A stretch of 35,027 bases of DNA from Sandaracinaceae bacterium. Its GTDB lineage: Bacteria; Myxococcota_A; Polyangia; Polyangiales; Sandaracinaceae. Below the pieces are notes generated by a model. It had not been told where the DNA came from, did not search any database, and worked only from the letters and a program-made list of their open reading frames with translations. The stretch is taken from assembly GCA_019637095.1 (NCBI GenBank), contig JAHBWG010000090.1, positions 1-35,027 on the forward strand. The letters are read 5' to 3'. Of the stretch, positions 13,007-19,194 are shown one piece after another. Numbering within the stretch: position 1 is the first letter of the stretch; every line of letters starts with the position of its first letter. The position numbers and the translations under genes are program-made.

Positions 13007-13014
13007 GGAGGAGG
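13007..13014 (+). promoter_or_regulatory. strong ribosome-binding site
   Basis: GGAGGAGG ends 4 nt before ATG 13019 and only 1 nt before GTG 13016, so ATG 13019 is the likelier start. Such a perfect Shine-Dalgarno is rare among the genes in this window. Confidence 0.6.
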
Positions 13015-13018
13015 CGTG

Positions 13019-15751
13019 ATGGCGCGACGGTGGCTGCCCGCTGGGCTCGTGCTCGTGCTCGCGGGGTGCGGGATGCTCGGCGGTGACGAGCCGAGCGAGG
13101 GAGAGGGCGAGGGACAGGGCGCGCCGCCGGCGGAGGCCGCGCCGCCGCCGCTCCCGGACGCGCCGCCGATCTCCGCGGGCGAGGACCACACGTGCGCGGT
13201 GAGGCCGACCGGCGAGCTCTTCTGCTGGGGCCGCAACCTCGACGGAGAGCTGGGCGACGGGACGAGCCGCAACCGCCGCGTGCCGGTGCCCGTCCGCGAC
13301 CTCGCGCAGGTCCACCAGGTGTCGGCGGGGCGCTACCACACGTGCGCGCTCCGCCGCGACGGCAATGTGTTTTGCTGGGGACGGAACGATCACGGCCAGC
13401 TCGGCGACGGCTCGACCGAGAACCGCGCGGCGCCCGTGCAGGTCGCTGGGATCGCCGACGCGGTGCAGGTCGGCGCGGGGCACGAGCTCTCCTGCGCGCT
13501 GCTGCGCGCCGGCACGGTCACGTGCTGGGGCAACGGGCAGTCCGGCCGGCTCGGGCGCGGCTCGACCCAGAGCAGCCCGACGCCGGTCCCCGTCGAGGGC
13601 GTGACCGGCGCGACGCGCATCGCCGTCGGCGGCTGGCACGCGTGCGCGCTCGTCGAGGGCGGTCGGCTGTGGTGCTGGGGCGCCGACGACAACGGCCAGC
13701 TCGGGCTCCCCGGCGACGCGCCGCGCGAGCAGCTCTCGCCGCAGCCCGTGCCGGGGCTCGAGGGGGTGACGGCGGTCGCGGCGGGTCACCTCGCCACCTG
13801 CGCGGTCCACGGGGGCAACCTCTCTTGCTGGGGCGACGCGTACTACGGGCTGCTCGGCAACGGCCAGAGCGGCTCGGGCGCCGCCGACGGCCAGACGCCC
13901 GCGCTCGTCGCGGGGCTCGCCGAGGTCGCGGACGTCGACGTCGGCGTCTACCAGGCGTGCGCGCGGCTCGGCGACGGGACGGTGCGCTGCTGGGGCAACG
14001 ACGGCTACGGCAACCTCGGCGCCGCCGAGCGCGGGCATCAGGTCACGCCCGCGGAGGTCTCGGGCCTGAGCGACGCGACGCACCTCGCCGTCGGCGCCTA
14101 CCACGTGTGCGTGCGCCGCGCGTCGGGGGCGATCGCGTGCTGGGGCAAGAGCGGCGATGGCCAGCTCGGCGCGCACGAGATCCAGGACGCCTACCACGCG
14201 ATCGACCGGATCGCGTCGCTCGCGGAGCTCACCGCGGACGCGCCGCCCGTGCACACGTTCGCGCCCGCGGCGGCGCCGCCGCCGACGGCGCCCATGGTCT
14301 CGACCTCCGACGGGTACGCGTGCGGCGTGCGCAGCGACGGGCGCGTGCTCTGTTGGGGCGGCGCGGCCTCGAGCGGTCAGCTCGGCAACGGCGGCGCGCG
14401 CCCCGCGACGAGCGGCGCCGTCGAGGTGGCCGGCATCACCGACGCCGTCGAGGTGCGCACGAGCCAATCGGCGGCGTGCGCGCGGCGCCAGAGCGGCGAG
14501 GTCGCCTGCTGGGGTTACCTCGGCCGCGTCGACGGCTCGCCCGACCACGTGCGCACGAGCCGGCCGATCCCGCTGCCCGGCGTGACCGACGCGATCGGGA
14601 TCGCGTTGAGCACGAGCGGTCCATGCGTCCTGCACCGCGCGGGCACGGTGAGCTGCGCCGCCGCGACCGCGCTCGAGCCGGTCGAGGGCCTCACGGGCGC
14701 GGTCGAGATCGTCGCGGGCGGTACGTCCGCGTGTGCGCGGCTCGAAGGCGGCGGCGTGCGCTGCTGGGGCTCCGGGAACCGCGGCCAGCTCGGCAACGGC
14801 GCGGATCAGTCCTCGCGCACGCCGGTCGAGGTCGCGGGGCTGACCGACGCCGAGCAGCTCTCGGCCTCGTTCTCTTACACGTGCGCGCTCCGGCGCGGCG
14901 GCGCGATCTCGTGCTGGGGCTCGAACGAGAAGGGCCAGCTCGGCAACGGCCGCAGCGGCGAGGGCGCGTACGAGAACCGCCCCGTCGCGGTGCGCGGCGT
15001 GCGCGGCGCCGTGGAGGTCGCGGCGGGCGTGCACCACGCGTGCGCGCGCTTCGCCGATCACTCGCTGCGCTGCTGGGGCGCGAACGACGCGGACCAGCTC
15101 GGCACCGGGCAGGAGCGCAGCGAGCGCACCCCCGCGATCGTCGCGAGCCCGGTCGCGGTCGCCGCGCCGGAGGCGCCGCTCGGCCCGATCGCGCAGCTCT
15201 CCTGCGGCTGGCACCACTGCTGTACGGTGCACGAGAACGGGCAGCTCCAGTGCTGGGGTCGCAGCTCCGTGCTCGGGGAGGGCACGCTCGGCGGGCTGGT
15301 CAGCTCGCGCAGCAACCGCCCGCGCGCGATCACCCTCGCGGCGCTCGGCAGCGCGCCGCCGCCCGCGCCGCCCGCGCCGCCCGCGGAGCCGGCGCCGGAG
15401 CCGGCGCCGGTCGTCGCGGTAGAGCGCGTCGAGGTGCCGCCCGAGGCGGCTTCGCCCGAGGAGCCGGCCGCGCCCGACGCGCGCGAGCCCCGCGCCGGCG
15501 ACCCGCGCTCGGCGGTCGAGCAAGCGGTCCATCAGGCCTCGCGCACGTGCTACGGCCGGCTCGGCGCGCGCGGCCGCGTCACGGTGCGCGTCACCGTCGG
15601 GCCCGACGGGCGCGTGCAGACCTCGCGCGTGATCTCGAACGGCACCGGCAACGACGAGACCGGCCGGTGCATCAGCGGCGCGCTCGTCGGCCGCCGCTTC
15701 TCGCGCCCTCGCCAGGGCGCCGTCACCTACGACATCGCGTTCGGGGGATGA
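13019..15751 (+). CDS. lipoprotein with 14 RCC1-like repeats and a C-terminal AgmX/PglI domain
   Basis: This is a 910-residue lipoprotein with a canonical lipobox (LVLVLAGC, Cys 17). An acidic/Pro-rich linker is followed by RCC1-type repeats of the form V-x-A-G-x-x-H-x-C-A-x-x-x-x-G-x-x-x-C-W-G and by GQLG turns. I count 14: seven, a Pro/Ala linker, then seven more, which fits two seven-bladed propellers. Repeat 10 is degenerate (SCAA instead of CWG). Almost every blade has a Cys pair about a dozen residues apart, suggesting disulfides outside the cytoplasm. A Pro/Glu-rich linker (about 780-825) leads to a C-terminal AgmX/PglI TonB-like domain (SRTCYGRL, VTVRVTVGPDGRVQTSRV, TGRCISGAL). It is probably on the outer-membrane periplasmic or outer face. 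Function is unknown. The start is ATG 13019, justified by the ribosome site. Confidence 0.93.
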   Translation: MARRWLPAGLVLVLAGCGMLGGDEPSEGEGEGQGAPPAEAAPPPLPDAPPISAGEDHTCAVRPTGELFCWGRNLDGELGDGTSRNRRVPVPVRDLAQVHQVSAGRYHTCALRRDGNVFCWGRNDHGQLGDGSTENRAAPVQVAGIADAVQVGAGHELSCALLRAGTVTCWGNGQSGRLGRGSTQSSPTPVPVEGVTGATRIAVGGWHACALVEGGRLWCWGADDNGQLGLPGDAPREQLSPQPVPGLEGVTAVAAGHLATCAVHGGNLSCWGDAYYGLLGNGQSGSGAADGQTPALVAGLAEVADVDVGVYQACARLGDGTVRCWGNDGYGNLGAAERGHQVTPAEVSGLSDATHLAVGAYHVCVRRASGAIACWGKSGDGQLGAHEIQDAYHAIDRIASLAELTADAPPVHTFAPAAAPPPTAPMVSTSDGYACGVRSDGRVLCWGGAASSGQLGNGGARPATSGAVEVAGITDAVEVRTSQSAACARRQSGEVACWGYLGRVDGSPDHVRTSRPIPLPGVTDAIGIALSTSGPCVLHRAGTVSCAAATALEPVEGLTGAVEIVAGGTSACARLEGGGVRCWGSGNRGQLGNGADQSSRTPVEVAGLTDAEQLSASFSYTCALRRGGAISCWGSNEKGQLGNGRSGEGAYENRPVAVRGVRGAVEVAAGVHHACARFADHSLRCWGANDADQLGTGQERSERTPAIVASPVAVAAPEAPLGPIAQLSCGWHHCCTVHENGQLQCWGRSSVLGEGTLGGLVSSRSNRPRAITLAALGSAPPPAPPAPPAEPAPEPAPVVAVERVEVPPEAASPEEPAAPDAREPRAGDPRSAVEQAVHQASRTCYGRLGARGRVTVRVTVGPDGRVQTSRVISNGTGNDETGRCISGALVGRRFSRPRQGAVTYDIAFGG

Positions 15752-15825: not shown

Positions 15826-17202
15826 ATGGCTGCGCCTCTTCCGCCCGCGCCCGCGCCTCGCCGTCACGGCCTGGGCGTGCGCGTGCAGCTGATGGTCGTG
15901 CTCGGCCTCGGGTTCGCGCTGTCGGTCCTCTTGCTCGGCTTCGCGACGACGCGCCTCGGGGCGCGCGCGATCGATCGCGAGCGGAGGGAGGCGGCGGCGG
16001 GGATGGCGCGCGCCTTCCTCGCGCTCGACGCGGTCGAGGCCGAGCACCTCGAGCAGCTCGTCGGCGCGGGTGGCGTCGTCGGGGTCGAGGTCTTCGACGG
16101 TGACGCCGTGGTCGCGGTCGCCGGCGAGGTCGGACACGCCGCCATCGAACGCCGCGACGGCGCGCGCCTCGTCCGGGTGCACCTCGACTCGGCGGAGGTC
16201 AGCACCGCGGGCGCCCTCCCGGGACTGCTCTTCCTCTACGTCGGCCTCACCGCGGCGGTGATCCTGCTGCTCACGTACGTGCTGCTGACGCGGCTGATCG
16301 TGCGGCCGCTCGCGGCGCTGACGCGGGCGTCGGAGCGCGTCGCGGCCGGCAAGGAGACGCAGGTGCCGATCGAAGGGACCGCGGAGCTCGCGCGGCTCGC
16401 CGTGTCCTTCAACGACATGCAGAAGCAGCTCCTACGCGACCGCGAGGAGCTGCGCGCGCGGCTCGAGGACCTCGAGGCGACCACCACCGAGCTGCGCGCG
16501 ACCCAGCGCTCGCTCGTGCGCAGCGAGAAGCTCGCGTCGGTCGGCCGCCTCGCGGCGGGCATCGCGCACGAGATCGGCAACCCGCTCAGCGCCATCCAGG
16601 GCCTGCTCGAGCTCGTCGAGGGCGGCGACCTCGACGCGCAGACCGAGCGCGAGTTCCTCGCCCGCGTGCGCAAGGAGACGGAGCGGATCCACCGCATCAT
16701 CCGCGACCTGCTCGACTTCGCGCGGAGCGAGCCGACCGCGCACGAGGTGGGCGCGACGTGCGACCTCGCCGAGGTCGTCGAGGACGCGGTGCGCCTCGTA
16801 GGACCGCAAGCCGATTTGCGACAGATCACGCTCGAGCGGCGCTTCGATCCGGACGTGCCGCGCGCGGTCGGCTCCCCCGCGCGGCTCGCGCAGGTGGTGC
16901 TCAACCTCCTGCTCAACGCGGCCGACGCGATCGACGGCGAGGGCGCCATCCGCCTCGAGGTCGGCGGCGAGGACGGCTGGGTGACGCTCGTGGTCCACGA
17001 CAGCGGGCCGGGCATCCCCGAGGAGATCCTCGACCACCTCTTCGAGCCGTTCGTGACGACCAAGCCCGCTGGCGAGGGGACCGGGCTCGGGCTCGCCGTC
17101 TGCCACACGCTCGTCGAGCAGCTCGGCGGGACGCTGCGCGCAGAGAACCCGCCCGAGGGCGGCGCGCGCTTCACGGTGCGCCTCCCCGCCGCGAGCTCGT
17201 GA
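15826..17202 (+). CDS. membrane sensor histidine kinase
   Basis: This is a 458-residue kinase. Transmembrane helices lie at about 20-42 and 133-156 and flank a short periplasmic sensor of roughly 90 residues. A HAMP domain follows (157-205, IVRPLAALTRASERVAAG) with a coiled coil, then HisKA with the phospho-acceptor His 248 in GIAHEIGNPLSAI. HATPase boxes are N (LNLLLNAADAI, 359-369), G1 (HDSGPGI), F (FEPFVTTK) and G2 (GTGLGLAV). All motifs are intact. No response regulator is adjacent, so it is an orphan here. It starts 74 bp after the RCC1 lipoprotein gene in the same direction with no promoter or terminator visible between, so the two may share a transcript. The ribosome site is poor. Confidence 0.95.
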   Translation: MAAPLPPAPAPRRHGLGVRVQLMVVLGLGFALSVLLLGFATTRLGARAIDRERREAAAGMARAFLALDAVEAEHLEQLVGAGGVVGVEVFDGDAVVAVAGEVGHAAIERRDGARLVRVHLDSAEVSTAGALPGLLFLYVGLTAAVILLLTYVLLTRLIVRPLAALTRASERVAAGKETQVPIEGTAELARLAVSFNDMQKQLLRDREELRARLEDLEATTTELRATQRSLVRSEKLASVGRLAAGIAHEIGNPLSAIQGLLELVEGGDLDAQTEREFLARVRKETERIHRIIRDLLDFARSEPTAHEVGATCDLAEVVEDAVRLVGPQADLRQITLERRFDPDVPRAVGSPARLAQVVLNLLLNAADAIDGEGAIRLEVGGEDGWVTLVVHDSGPGIPEEILDHLFEPFVTTKPAGEGTGLGLAVCHTLVEQLGGTLRAENPPEGGARFTVRLPAASS

Positions 17203-17268: not shown

Positions 17269-19194
17269 GTGCGGTGGGTGGTCACGCTCGCGCTCCTCGG
17301 CGCTCCCATGGCGGCGCTCGCGCAGTCGCCCGAGGAGGCGTGCCGCTCGGACCTCGACGGCTGCGTCGCGGAGGCCGACGCCCTGCTCTCGCGCGACGAG
17401 CAGCTCGACCGCGTCGTCGGCCTGCTGCGCGTCGCGTGCAACCGAGGGCAGTGGGAGGGCTGCCGGCGCCTCGGCGCGCTCTACGCGATCGGCCGCGGCG
17501 TGCCCCGCGAGCTCCCGCGCGCCGCGACGATGTTCGAGCTCGCCTGTGACAACGGCAACCAGGCGGCGTGCCTGCACCTCGGGCTCATGCGCCTCCACGG
17601 GCACGGCGTGCGCGAGGATCGCGCGGCCGGCGTGCGGCTCATCCAAGGCGCGTGCGAGGCCGGGGCGCGCGGCGCGTGCGGGCACCTCGCGACCTGCTAC
17701 GCGGACGGCGTCGGGGTCGCGGCGGATCCCGCGCGCGCCGCGGCGCTGCGGCAGCGCGAGTGCACGAACGATCCCGGCTCGTGCGGCGGCAGCGCGAGCG
17801 AGGCGGAGGAGCGCGATCCCGCCGAGGCGCTCGCCGAGTACCGCGCCGCGTGCGAGCGCCGGCAGGACGCGAACGCGTGTCTGCGGCTCGGCGTGCTGGT
17901 GCGCGACGGGCGCGGGATCGCGGCGGATCCCGCGGGCGCGGTGTCGTGGTTCGCGCGCGCGTGCGCGGGCGGAGAGCACGCGGCCTGCAACCACGTCGGC
18001 GTCGCCTACGAGGACGGCGTCGGGGTGCGCCGCGACCTCGTGCGCGCGGCGCAGCTCTTCCAACGCGCGTGTGACGCAGGCTTCCAGCTCGCGTGCAGCA
18101 ACTACGGCCGGATGCTCGAGACGGGGCGCGGCGTCGCGCAGGACATCGCGCGGGCGCGCGCCCTCTACGAGGCGGCCTGCGAGGCGGGCGCGCTGATGGG
18201 CTGCAACAACCTCGGGCTCGTCTACGAGGAGGGCGTCGGCGTGCCCGTGGACCTCGCGCGCGCGGCGCAGCTCTACCAGCGCGCGTGCGACGGCGGGACG
18301 CGCCTGGGCTGCTATCACCTCGGCCTGCTGACGGAAGACGGGCGCGGCGTGGCGCGCCGCCCCGCGGCCGCGCTCGAGCTGCACCGGCGCGCGTGCGAAG
18401 GCGGCGTCGCGCTCGGGTGCACGGCGCTCGGCGCGATGTACGCGGGCGGGCGCGGCACGCGGCAAGACCTCGCGATGGCGGCGCGGCTCTACGCGAGCGC
18501 GTGCGACCGCCGCGATCACTACGCGTGCGTCCAGCTCGGCATCTTCTACGAGGAAGGCCGCGGCCTCGCCCGAGACGTCGCGGGTGCGGCGCGGCTCTAC
18601 GAGCACGCGTGCGAGGCGGAGGAGTGGAGCGGCTGCACGCGCTTCGGCCTGCTGCTGCAGAGCGGCGAGGGCGTCGCGCAGAACGACGCGCGCGCGCTCG
18701 AGATGTTCCGCCGCGGTTGCGAGCACGACGACTTGCGGGGGTGCATCGGGCTCGGGTTCTTGCACGAGCGCGGGCGGGGCGTGCGGCAGGACTACACCGC
18801 GGCGCGCGCGCTCTATACGCGCGCGTGCGACGGCGGCGAGCTGCGCGGCTGCAACAACCTCGGGTTCCTCTACCTGCGCGGGCTCGGGGTGACCAGCCAG
18901 CCGGGCCGGGCGGTCGAGCTCTTCCGCCGCGCGTGCGACGGGCGCAACGCGCTCGGCTGTTCGAACCTCGGGAGCCTGTTCCTGTCGGGCTCGGGCGTCG
19001 CCGCCGATCCGTCCCAGGCGGCGCCGCTCTTCGAGCGCTCGTGCTCGATGGGCGCCGCGCAGGGCTGCTTCAACCTCGGCCTGCTCCACGAGCAGGGCAA
19101 CGGCGTCCCGGCGAACGCGGCGCGCGCGCGCGAGCTGTTCGTGCAGGCGTGCGAGGGCGGCTACGCGCCCGCCTGCCAGCGCACCGGCTCGTGA
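17269..19194 (+). CDS. secreted cysteine-rich Sel1-repeat protein
   Basis: This 641-residue protein has a Sec signal peptide (MRWVVTLALLGAPMAALAQ). About 15 Sel1-like repeats of 36 residues follow, each with the signature L-G-x-x-Y-x-x-G-x-G-V-x-x-D-x-x-R-A-A-x-L-Y-x-x-A-C. Almost every repeat contributes a C-x7/8-C pair (for example CDNGNQAAC, CEAGALMGC, CDGGELRGC), the hallmark of the Helicobacter cysteine-rich (Hcp) type in which each helix pair is disulfide-linked. An irregular spacer of about 30 residues interrupts the array near residues 165-195. It is expected to be periplasmic or secreted and to act as a protein-binding scaffold; Hcp proteins bind beta-lactams weakly or host partners. 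Start is GTG 17269. It ends 3 bp before the convergent tetR gene. Confidence 0.9.
   Translation: MRWVVTLALLGAPMAALAQSPEEACRSDLDGCVAEADALLSRDEQLDRVVGLLRVACNRGQWEGCRRLGALYAIGRGVPRELPRAATMFELACDNGNQAACLHLGLMRLHGHGVREDRAAGVRLIQGACEAGARGACGHLATCYADGVGVAADPARAAALRQRECTNDPGSCGGSASEAEERDPAEALAEYRAACERRQDANACLRLGVLVRDGRGIAADPAGAVSWFARACAGGEHAACNHVGVAYEDGVGVRRDLVRAAQLFQRACDAGFQLACSNYGRMLETGRGVAQDIARARALYEAACEAGALMGCNNLGLVYEEGVGVPVDLARAAQLYQRACDGGTRLGCYHLGLLTEDGRGVARRPAAALELHRRACEGGVALGCTALGAMYAGGRGTRQDLAMAARLYASACDRRDHYACVQLGIFYEEGRGLARDVAGAARLYEHACEAEEWSGCTRFGLLLQSGEGVAQNDARALEMFRRGCEHDDLRGCIGLGFLHERGRGVRQDYTAARALYTRACDGGELRGCNNLGFLYLRGLGVTSQPGRAVELFRRACDGRNALGCSNLGSLFLSGSGVAADPSQAAPLFERSCSMGAAQGCFNLGLLHEQGNGVPANAARARELFVQACEGGYAPACQRTGS

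Follow-up and report, generated by a model that had tools for sequence, protein, structure and literature searches.

A double RCC1-propeller lipoprotein with an AgmX/PglI-type C-terminal domain in a Sandaracinaceae bacterium

We analysed the 910-residue protein encoded by the open reading frame (ORF) at 13,019–15,751 (forward strand) in a 35,027-nucleotide stretch of DNA from a Sandaracinaceae bacterium (contig JAHBWG010000090.1); the whole stretch is called the window and the protein the window protein. The window protein brings familiar parts together in an unusual way: it is a membrane-anchored, putative binder whose translation comprises a lipobox, 14 RCC1 blades, a linker, and an AgmX/PglI C-terminal domain. 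The novelty lies in the fusion of the tail and not in the double propeller. We tentatively propose, with a confidence somewhat short of even, that the window protein is a divergent paralogue of double RCC1 lipoproteins, a disulfide-stapled binder that gained a periplasmic docking tail and serves as an adaptor, not a motor.

Architecture of the window protein

The following features were assigned, with the evidence for each in brackets.

13007..13014, + strand: possible ribosome-binding site, GGAGGAGG, 4 bases before the ATG (putative, read from the sequence)
13019..13069, + strand: signal peptide and lipobox, ...LVLAGC17, with Gly at +2 (translation; family alignment)
13157..14212, + strand: RCC1 propeller 1, blades 1–7, residues 47–398 (Pfam, Cys pairs, model, fold matches)
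14213..14293, + strand: inter-propeller linker, residues 399–425 (63% Pro/Ala/Glu; pLDDT <50 at 386–422)
14294..15340, + strand: RCC1 propeller 2, blades 8–14, residues 426–774 (Pfam, Cys pairs, model)
14588..14695, + strand: blade 10, residues 524–559, short, Cys pair kept and CWG lost (model, family alignment)
15203..15223, + strand: blade 14 motif CGWHHCC, residues 729–735, with the extra Cys pair 729/734 (family alignment)
15341..15502, + strand: Pro/Ala/Glu-rich linker, residues 775–828 (71% Pro/Ala/Glu over residues 775–832; pLDDT <50 at 749–827)
15503..15748, + strand: AgmX/PglI (TonB_C-like) C-terminal domain, residues 829–910, with the Cys pair 844/884 (profile and alignment)

The assignment as a lipoprotein, already made in the initial annotation, is a motif reading of the signal peptide and the lipobox L-A-G-C17, and the lipobox Cys was aligned in all eight family members that have residues at this position (ten proteins aligned). 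No TM-like stretch was detected after the lipobox, the highest 19-residue hydropathy past residue 20 being 1.32. The GC content at the third codon position was even along the ORF up to the tail (0.94–0.98) and was 0.82 in the last ten codons. This even codon bias and the recurrence of the double propeller in nine other proteins speak against an assembly misjoin; the joint between the linker and the tail is known from one contig.

The Pfam profiles WD40_RLD (1.1e-109, 367.6 bits; cut-off 150), RCC1 (7.8e-83, 273.3 bits; cut-off 21.7), and RCC1_2 (253 bits; cut-off 22) all scored above their cut-offs, and by E-value chance is far from explaining either the number of blades or the tail. Seven Cys pairs in propeller 1 (59/69, 109/119, 159/169, 209/219, 261/270, 314/324, and 364/374) and seven in propeller 2 (435/445, 487/497, 536/546, 572/582, 622/632, 675/685, and 735/745) were split into two groups by the Pro/Ala-rich stretch at about 399–425. 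These results bear out the fourteen repeats in two blocks of seven, separated by a linker, that had been read from the sequence. The Cys pair, described earlier as present in almost every blade, is in fact present in 14 of 14, and the CWG motif is present in 13 of 14. In blade 10, which comprises 36 residues, CWG is replaced by C-A-A-A, and four predicted strands and the Cys pair are retained. The spacing of the paired Cys, as opposed to model coordinates, suggests a disulfide within each blade. Pairing blade i with blade i+7 gave the best register between the two propellers, which was reached by 51 of 5040 permutations. A direct duplication of propeller 1 to give propeller 2 was considered and is not established, because several single propellers match propeller 1 better than propeller 2 does.

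The AlphaFold model, built with 12 aligned sequences, had a mean pLDDT of 75.5, with 444 of the 910 residues at or above 90, and contained 14 blades in two groups, which are the two seven-bladed propellers that a structure prediction had been expected to reveal. The linkers and the tail were of low confidence in the whole-protein model (pLDDT of the tail blocks, 33–61). The top fold match of propeller 1 was UVR8 (Z 52.8, rmsd 1.9, 352 residues aligned; Foldseek, VIA), followed in the ranking by RPGR, HERC, RCC1, BLIP-II (Z 29.6, rmsd 2.2, 242 aligned), and the CRINKLY4 (CR4/ACR4) ectodomains (7a0k and 7a0j, Z 27.5 and 26.5). The VIA list consists mostly of propeller 1 matches, and the absence of a fold from it is uninformative. 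Evidence for propeller 2 comes from its strands, its pLDDT, and weaker fold rows at 421–749 (Z about 17). The tail modelled alone (pLDDT 58.6) gave one helix and three strands, and this low-confidence model had no Foldseek match under 0.001. Support for both propellers is good, and the probable TonB_C-like character of the tail is read from its sequence.

UVR8, RCC1, RPGR, and HERC are intracellular eukaryotic proteins. They share the same seven-bladed RCC1 fold and are the best PDB matches by both sequence and structure, whereas the window chain is exported, has two propellers, and carries paired Cys in all of its blades. The CRINKLY4/ACR4 ectodomain is likewise exported, has seven blades, and shows paired Cys ahead of CWG; its repeats follow a C(X~10)CWG pattern, for which disulfides have been proposed (PMC4617170), whereas 8–9 residues separate the paired Cys of the window protein. 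Moreover, CRINKLY4/ACR4 has one propeller, borne by a receptor kinase of plants, whereas the window protein has two propellers, a lipid anchor, and no kinase. BLIP-II is described as a secreted bacterial protein binder with the RCC1 fold (PMC9218822). Its solved chain is a single propeller without anchor or tail, whereas the window protein has two propellers and both of these elements; nothing in the window protein pointed to binding of beta-lactamase.

The double-propeller family

A search with propeller 2 at 1e-40 gave matches in 10 of 96 genomes of the order and in 12 of 317 genomes of the class. From 13 places, those in G049, G045, and G063 were excluded from the family since they are not colinear doubles (12, 7, and 9 blades, respectively), which gave ten colinear double-propeller proteins in nine genomes, the window protein and L189 of the same genome included. 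The nine relatives (L189, L218–L223, L229, and L230) were 36–42% identical to the window protein; L222 lacks its 5′ end at a contig edge, and L230 lacks the first residues. L189 matched the window protein over residues 51–768 with 38.8% identity (blastp, 1e-135). The seven other proteins of the order were 46–68% identical among themselves and 37–42% identical to the window protein, and the two members from another family of the class were 36% identical to it. In the nine other genomes of the bacterial family, the propeller 2 search gave no colinear double, and the best matches that were read were single propellers. Like the window protein, the nine relatives have two colinear propellers, a lipobox Cys wherever that position is covered, and a blade 10 devoid of CWG; they differ from it in having no tail.

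In a tree of the propeller halves, from which the two outer members were omitted, the first propellers formed one clade (94/88) and the second propellers another (100/99), so the doubling predates the window copy. The window protein was sister to the order's other seven in both clades. On these groupings the doubling is old, L189 is the copy grouping with the other proteins of the order, and the window protein is a diverged paralogue. It diverges more than any other member in its order and is alone in carrying a tail, none having been found in the nine other members. The gain of the tail in the window lineage is a simpler reading than its loss in the others.

The absence of CWG from repeat 10, noted in the initial annotation, is real but not peculiar to the window protein; none of the ten proteins has CWG there, and the loss is thus a family trait. 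Two members keep only CW, and L189 additionally lacks the Cys pair of this blade. The extra Cys 729 and 734 of blade 14 were both present in eight of the ten members and both absent in two. At position 52 Cys was found in 9 of 9, and at position 103 in 8 of 8, of the other members with residues there, whereas the window protein has Ser and Ala, respectively. These joint changes are weak evidence and may hint at 52/103 and 729/734 disulfides; they give only a hint because each pair seems to have changed together in one step. The relative from G043 (L220, 5049–7766) contains a long Ser/Glu/Ala repeat between its two propellers.

RCC1 proteins are numerous in this genome. The window and 18 stretches with RCC1 matches elsewhere held 19 RCC1 ORFs with 139 detected blades, of which 133 have a Cys pair (window protein included), and a lipobox-like Cys precedes the blades in many of these ORFs. 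The Cys pairs are therefore a trait of the exported type and not of the window protein. Most of the ORFs are single propellers ending no more than 8 residues past the last blade. The exceptions are the window protein (136 residues past the last blade), L189, which is a double (6 residues), and the RCC1 lipoprotein-like L187 (1028–3736, G000:C1), whose extension of about 185 residues consists of two similar stretches with no Pfam match. Other arrangements were also observed: a deltaproteobacterial contig (L069, 1–7510) carries four ORFs in a row with 13–14 short RCC1 blades each, and in L061 (2–8773) and L065 (5668–9213) one ORF holds about 28 RCC1 blades.

Searches of the open-licence literature brought up no description of an RCC1–AgmX/PglI fusion or of the double-propeller family, and no described function for exported RCC1 lipoproteins, in line with the initial annotation, where none was known for the fusion. 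The sole mention of RCC1 in myxobacteria brought up by these searches was MXAN_0889, an RCC1 protein of Myxococcus xanthus found in outer-membrane vesicles (PMC4158809).

The C-terminal domain and its partners in fusion

The score of the tail with NF033768 lay near the cut-off of 40, at 34.3 bits with the whole protein, 38.8 bits in a six-frame search, and 40.1 bits with the domain alone. The NF033768 domain of AgmX (GltJ) and PglI (GltG) is TonB_C-like and has two invariant Cys, as does the window tail: the only two invariant columns among 19 aligned tails are both Cys, corresponding to C844 and C884, and the conserved Gly residues are also kept. A profile of the 19 tails matched TonB structures (chain 2gsk) at 1e-6. 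In a 75-tail tree with few columns and many weak forks, the window tail grouped with zinc-ribbon/TM/linker proteins of this genome, G002, and G008 (98/87), and was placed just outside their own clade (100/99). Its nearest relatives are thus zinc-ribbon/single-TM/linker proteins of the same bacterial family, and a protein of the same kind was also found in G005. The two Cys and the place in the tree uphold the earlier assignment of an AgmX/PglI TonB-like tail. In GltJ and GltG the domain is borne by inner-membrane TM proteins of the gliding machine (PMC3169522), whereas the window tail is on a lipoprotein without a TM helix.

The six-frame search gave 35 tail matches in this genome. In the fetched stretches of this genome the tail was also found on kinase/TM proteins and on other zinc-ribbon proteins, and AgmX/PglI tails were found on the lipobox-like chains L176 (1266–2177, two tails) and L173 (637–2529), the motif being read partly by eye. 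The occurrence of the tail on kinase/TM, zinc-ribbon, and lipobox-like chains indicates a widely used end module.

We searched for further copies of the fusion with a 190-residue query comprising blade 14, the linker, and the tail. Among the matches listed, the query hit 71 of 96 genomes at 1e-3 (with 34 candidates per genome scored), 10 of 317 at 1e-7 (10 scored), and 23 of 377 at 1e-6 (8 scored). Most of the matches cover the blade portion or the tail portion and not both, and some span the linker or the blade end into the tail. G002:C273 and G000:C3 gave such spanning matches and were rejected as fusion copies since they have no RCC1; G038:C27 (17–187, 27% identity) and G015:C34 (26–178) gave similar matches and stand as candidates. 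RCC1 and the tail occurred together in only three of 77 tail-bearing ORFs in 159 loci, all of them overlapping copies of the window gene, and none of 19 RCC1 ORFs in 13 loci from a contig scan had a tail. The fusion architecture, for which a search across Myxococcota had been suggested, was therefore found nowhere else among the genomes searched, where a weaker or differently built fusion could be missed; the double propeller, on the other hand, is shared with the nine relatives.

Proposed role and alternatives

According to our proposal, the exported chain would be lipid-anchored at its N-terminus, most likely in the outer membrane, and would face the periplasm. The two propellers, with seven predicted within-blade disulfides each, would form a rigid non-catalytic binding platform such as BLIP-II or the CRINKLY4 ectodomain, the ligand-binding role being suggested by analogy with BLIP-II. 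The window copy would then have acquired a flexible linker followed by a TonB_C-like domain that a disulfide closes. By analogy with TonB_C, the tail would most likely dock the platform to a periplasmic partner, which may be an outer-membrane protein, through a TonB-box-like peptide, or a second protein with a TonB_C/AgmX tail. The RCC1 protein in M. xanthus outer-membrane vesicles counts in favour of the proposal. The low-confidence model of the tail and the lack of conserved neighbours count against it, as does the possibility of surface exposure, under which a periplasmic docking domain would serve no purpose. The window protein may still be an envelope interaction hub, as the initial annotation suggested.

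The N-terminal lipid anchor and the absence of a TM helix confine the propellers and the tail to one side of a single membrane. A propeller at the surface combined with an arm in the periplasm, which the initial annotation had allowed for, is therefore impossible for this chain alone. An alternative is a surface-displayed adhesin or a prey or ligand binder in the outer leaflet or in vesicles, with a tail that is only a stabilising or inherited end domain. The periplasm is where the TonB_C domains described so far function, which argues against it. The retention of both Cys and the conserved Gly, which indicates that the tail is not decaying, also argues against such a surface binder. It would, however, agree with the absence of the tail from nine other family members, with the RCC1 protein in the vesicle fraction of M. 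xanthus, and with the fit of within-blade disulfides to an oxidising exterior, as proposed for CRINKLY4 (PMC4158809, PMC4617170). We regard this alternative as possible but rather unlikely.

The term "energy-coupled binder" used in the initial annotation is unsupported, since no TM helix follows the lipobox and known coupling runs through a TM helix. TolA, like TonB and GltG, couples via an inner-membrane TM helix. In GltG/GltJ and TonB the domain belongs to an inner-membrane protein and extends to the outer membrane, the TM helix of that protein being in contact with the motor, and GltG binds the motor subunit AglR (PMC3169522, PMC5349195). On its own, a lipoprotein is unable to do this. Coupling of the window tail to the proton-motive force through an ExbB/TolQ/AglR-type motor or an inner-membrane AgmX-type tail, with the propellers moved or a ligand released, would be in line with these TM proteins and with the single-TM proteins nearest to the window tail; nevertheless, the missing helix and the lack of motor genes in the scan of six neighbours in the window make it improbable. 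That the window protein is a dispensable paralogue, drifting and with no specific role, seems equally improbable. Its identity of 36–42% to all other members, compared with 46–68% among the seven others of the order, and the loss of Cys at positions 52 and 103 are what drift would leave, but the reading frame is open, 28 of 28 blade Cys are kept, and the codon bias is maintained.

The neighbourhood offers a further candidate partner. A histidine kinase (15,826–17,202) with HAMP, HisKA, and HATPase domains lies 75 bases downstream on the same strand, and its sequence was read as having a short segment flanked by two hydrophobic ones; the window protein could be a co-transcribed input lipoprotein acting as an accessory sensor. 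However, kinase matches at 1e-40 or better were found in 10 of 10 genomes of the bacterial family, whereas none of seven stretches around these matches in relatives contained an RCC1 ORF (L134 and L138 are short), and several had an ORF near the kinase that we take to be MalQ-like. The synteny of the kinase with the RCC1 gene is not conserved, and we consider this partnership very unlikely. A SpoIIAA-like protein is encoded upstream on the opposite strand (Pfam score under its cut-off). The GAF/HD gene upstream also matches strongly in relatives, where it lies on a different contig or a long way from the kinase, and the neighbours of double-propeller genes were common only to close pairs; no conserved partner gene emerges from the neighbours of the kinase matches or of the double-propeller genes. 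At 17,269–19,194 (+ strand) there is a Sel1-repeat protein (Pfam Sel1, 2.5e-79) with a signal-like start and a Cys in nearly every repeat, which is another exported Cys-rich repeat protein near the RCC1 gene.

The docking adaptor described above remains our preferred reading. An extension of it, which is speculative and to which we give the least credence, is that the tail pairs with AgmX-tailed inner-membrane proteins, in the way that TonB C-terminal domains can dimerise, bridges the membranes, and relays the ligand state of the propellers to a zinc-ribbon/TM protein, as part of a trans-envelope wiring code of exchangeable TonB_C tails.

The ten-member colinear family offers a defined target through its Cys pairs, blade 14 motif, and extra Cys positions. 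Its sole tailed member is a natural experiment in which a widespread end domain was moved from an inner-membrane protein to a lipoprotein.
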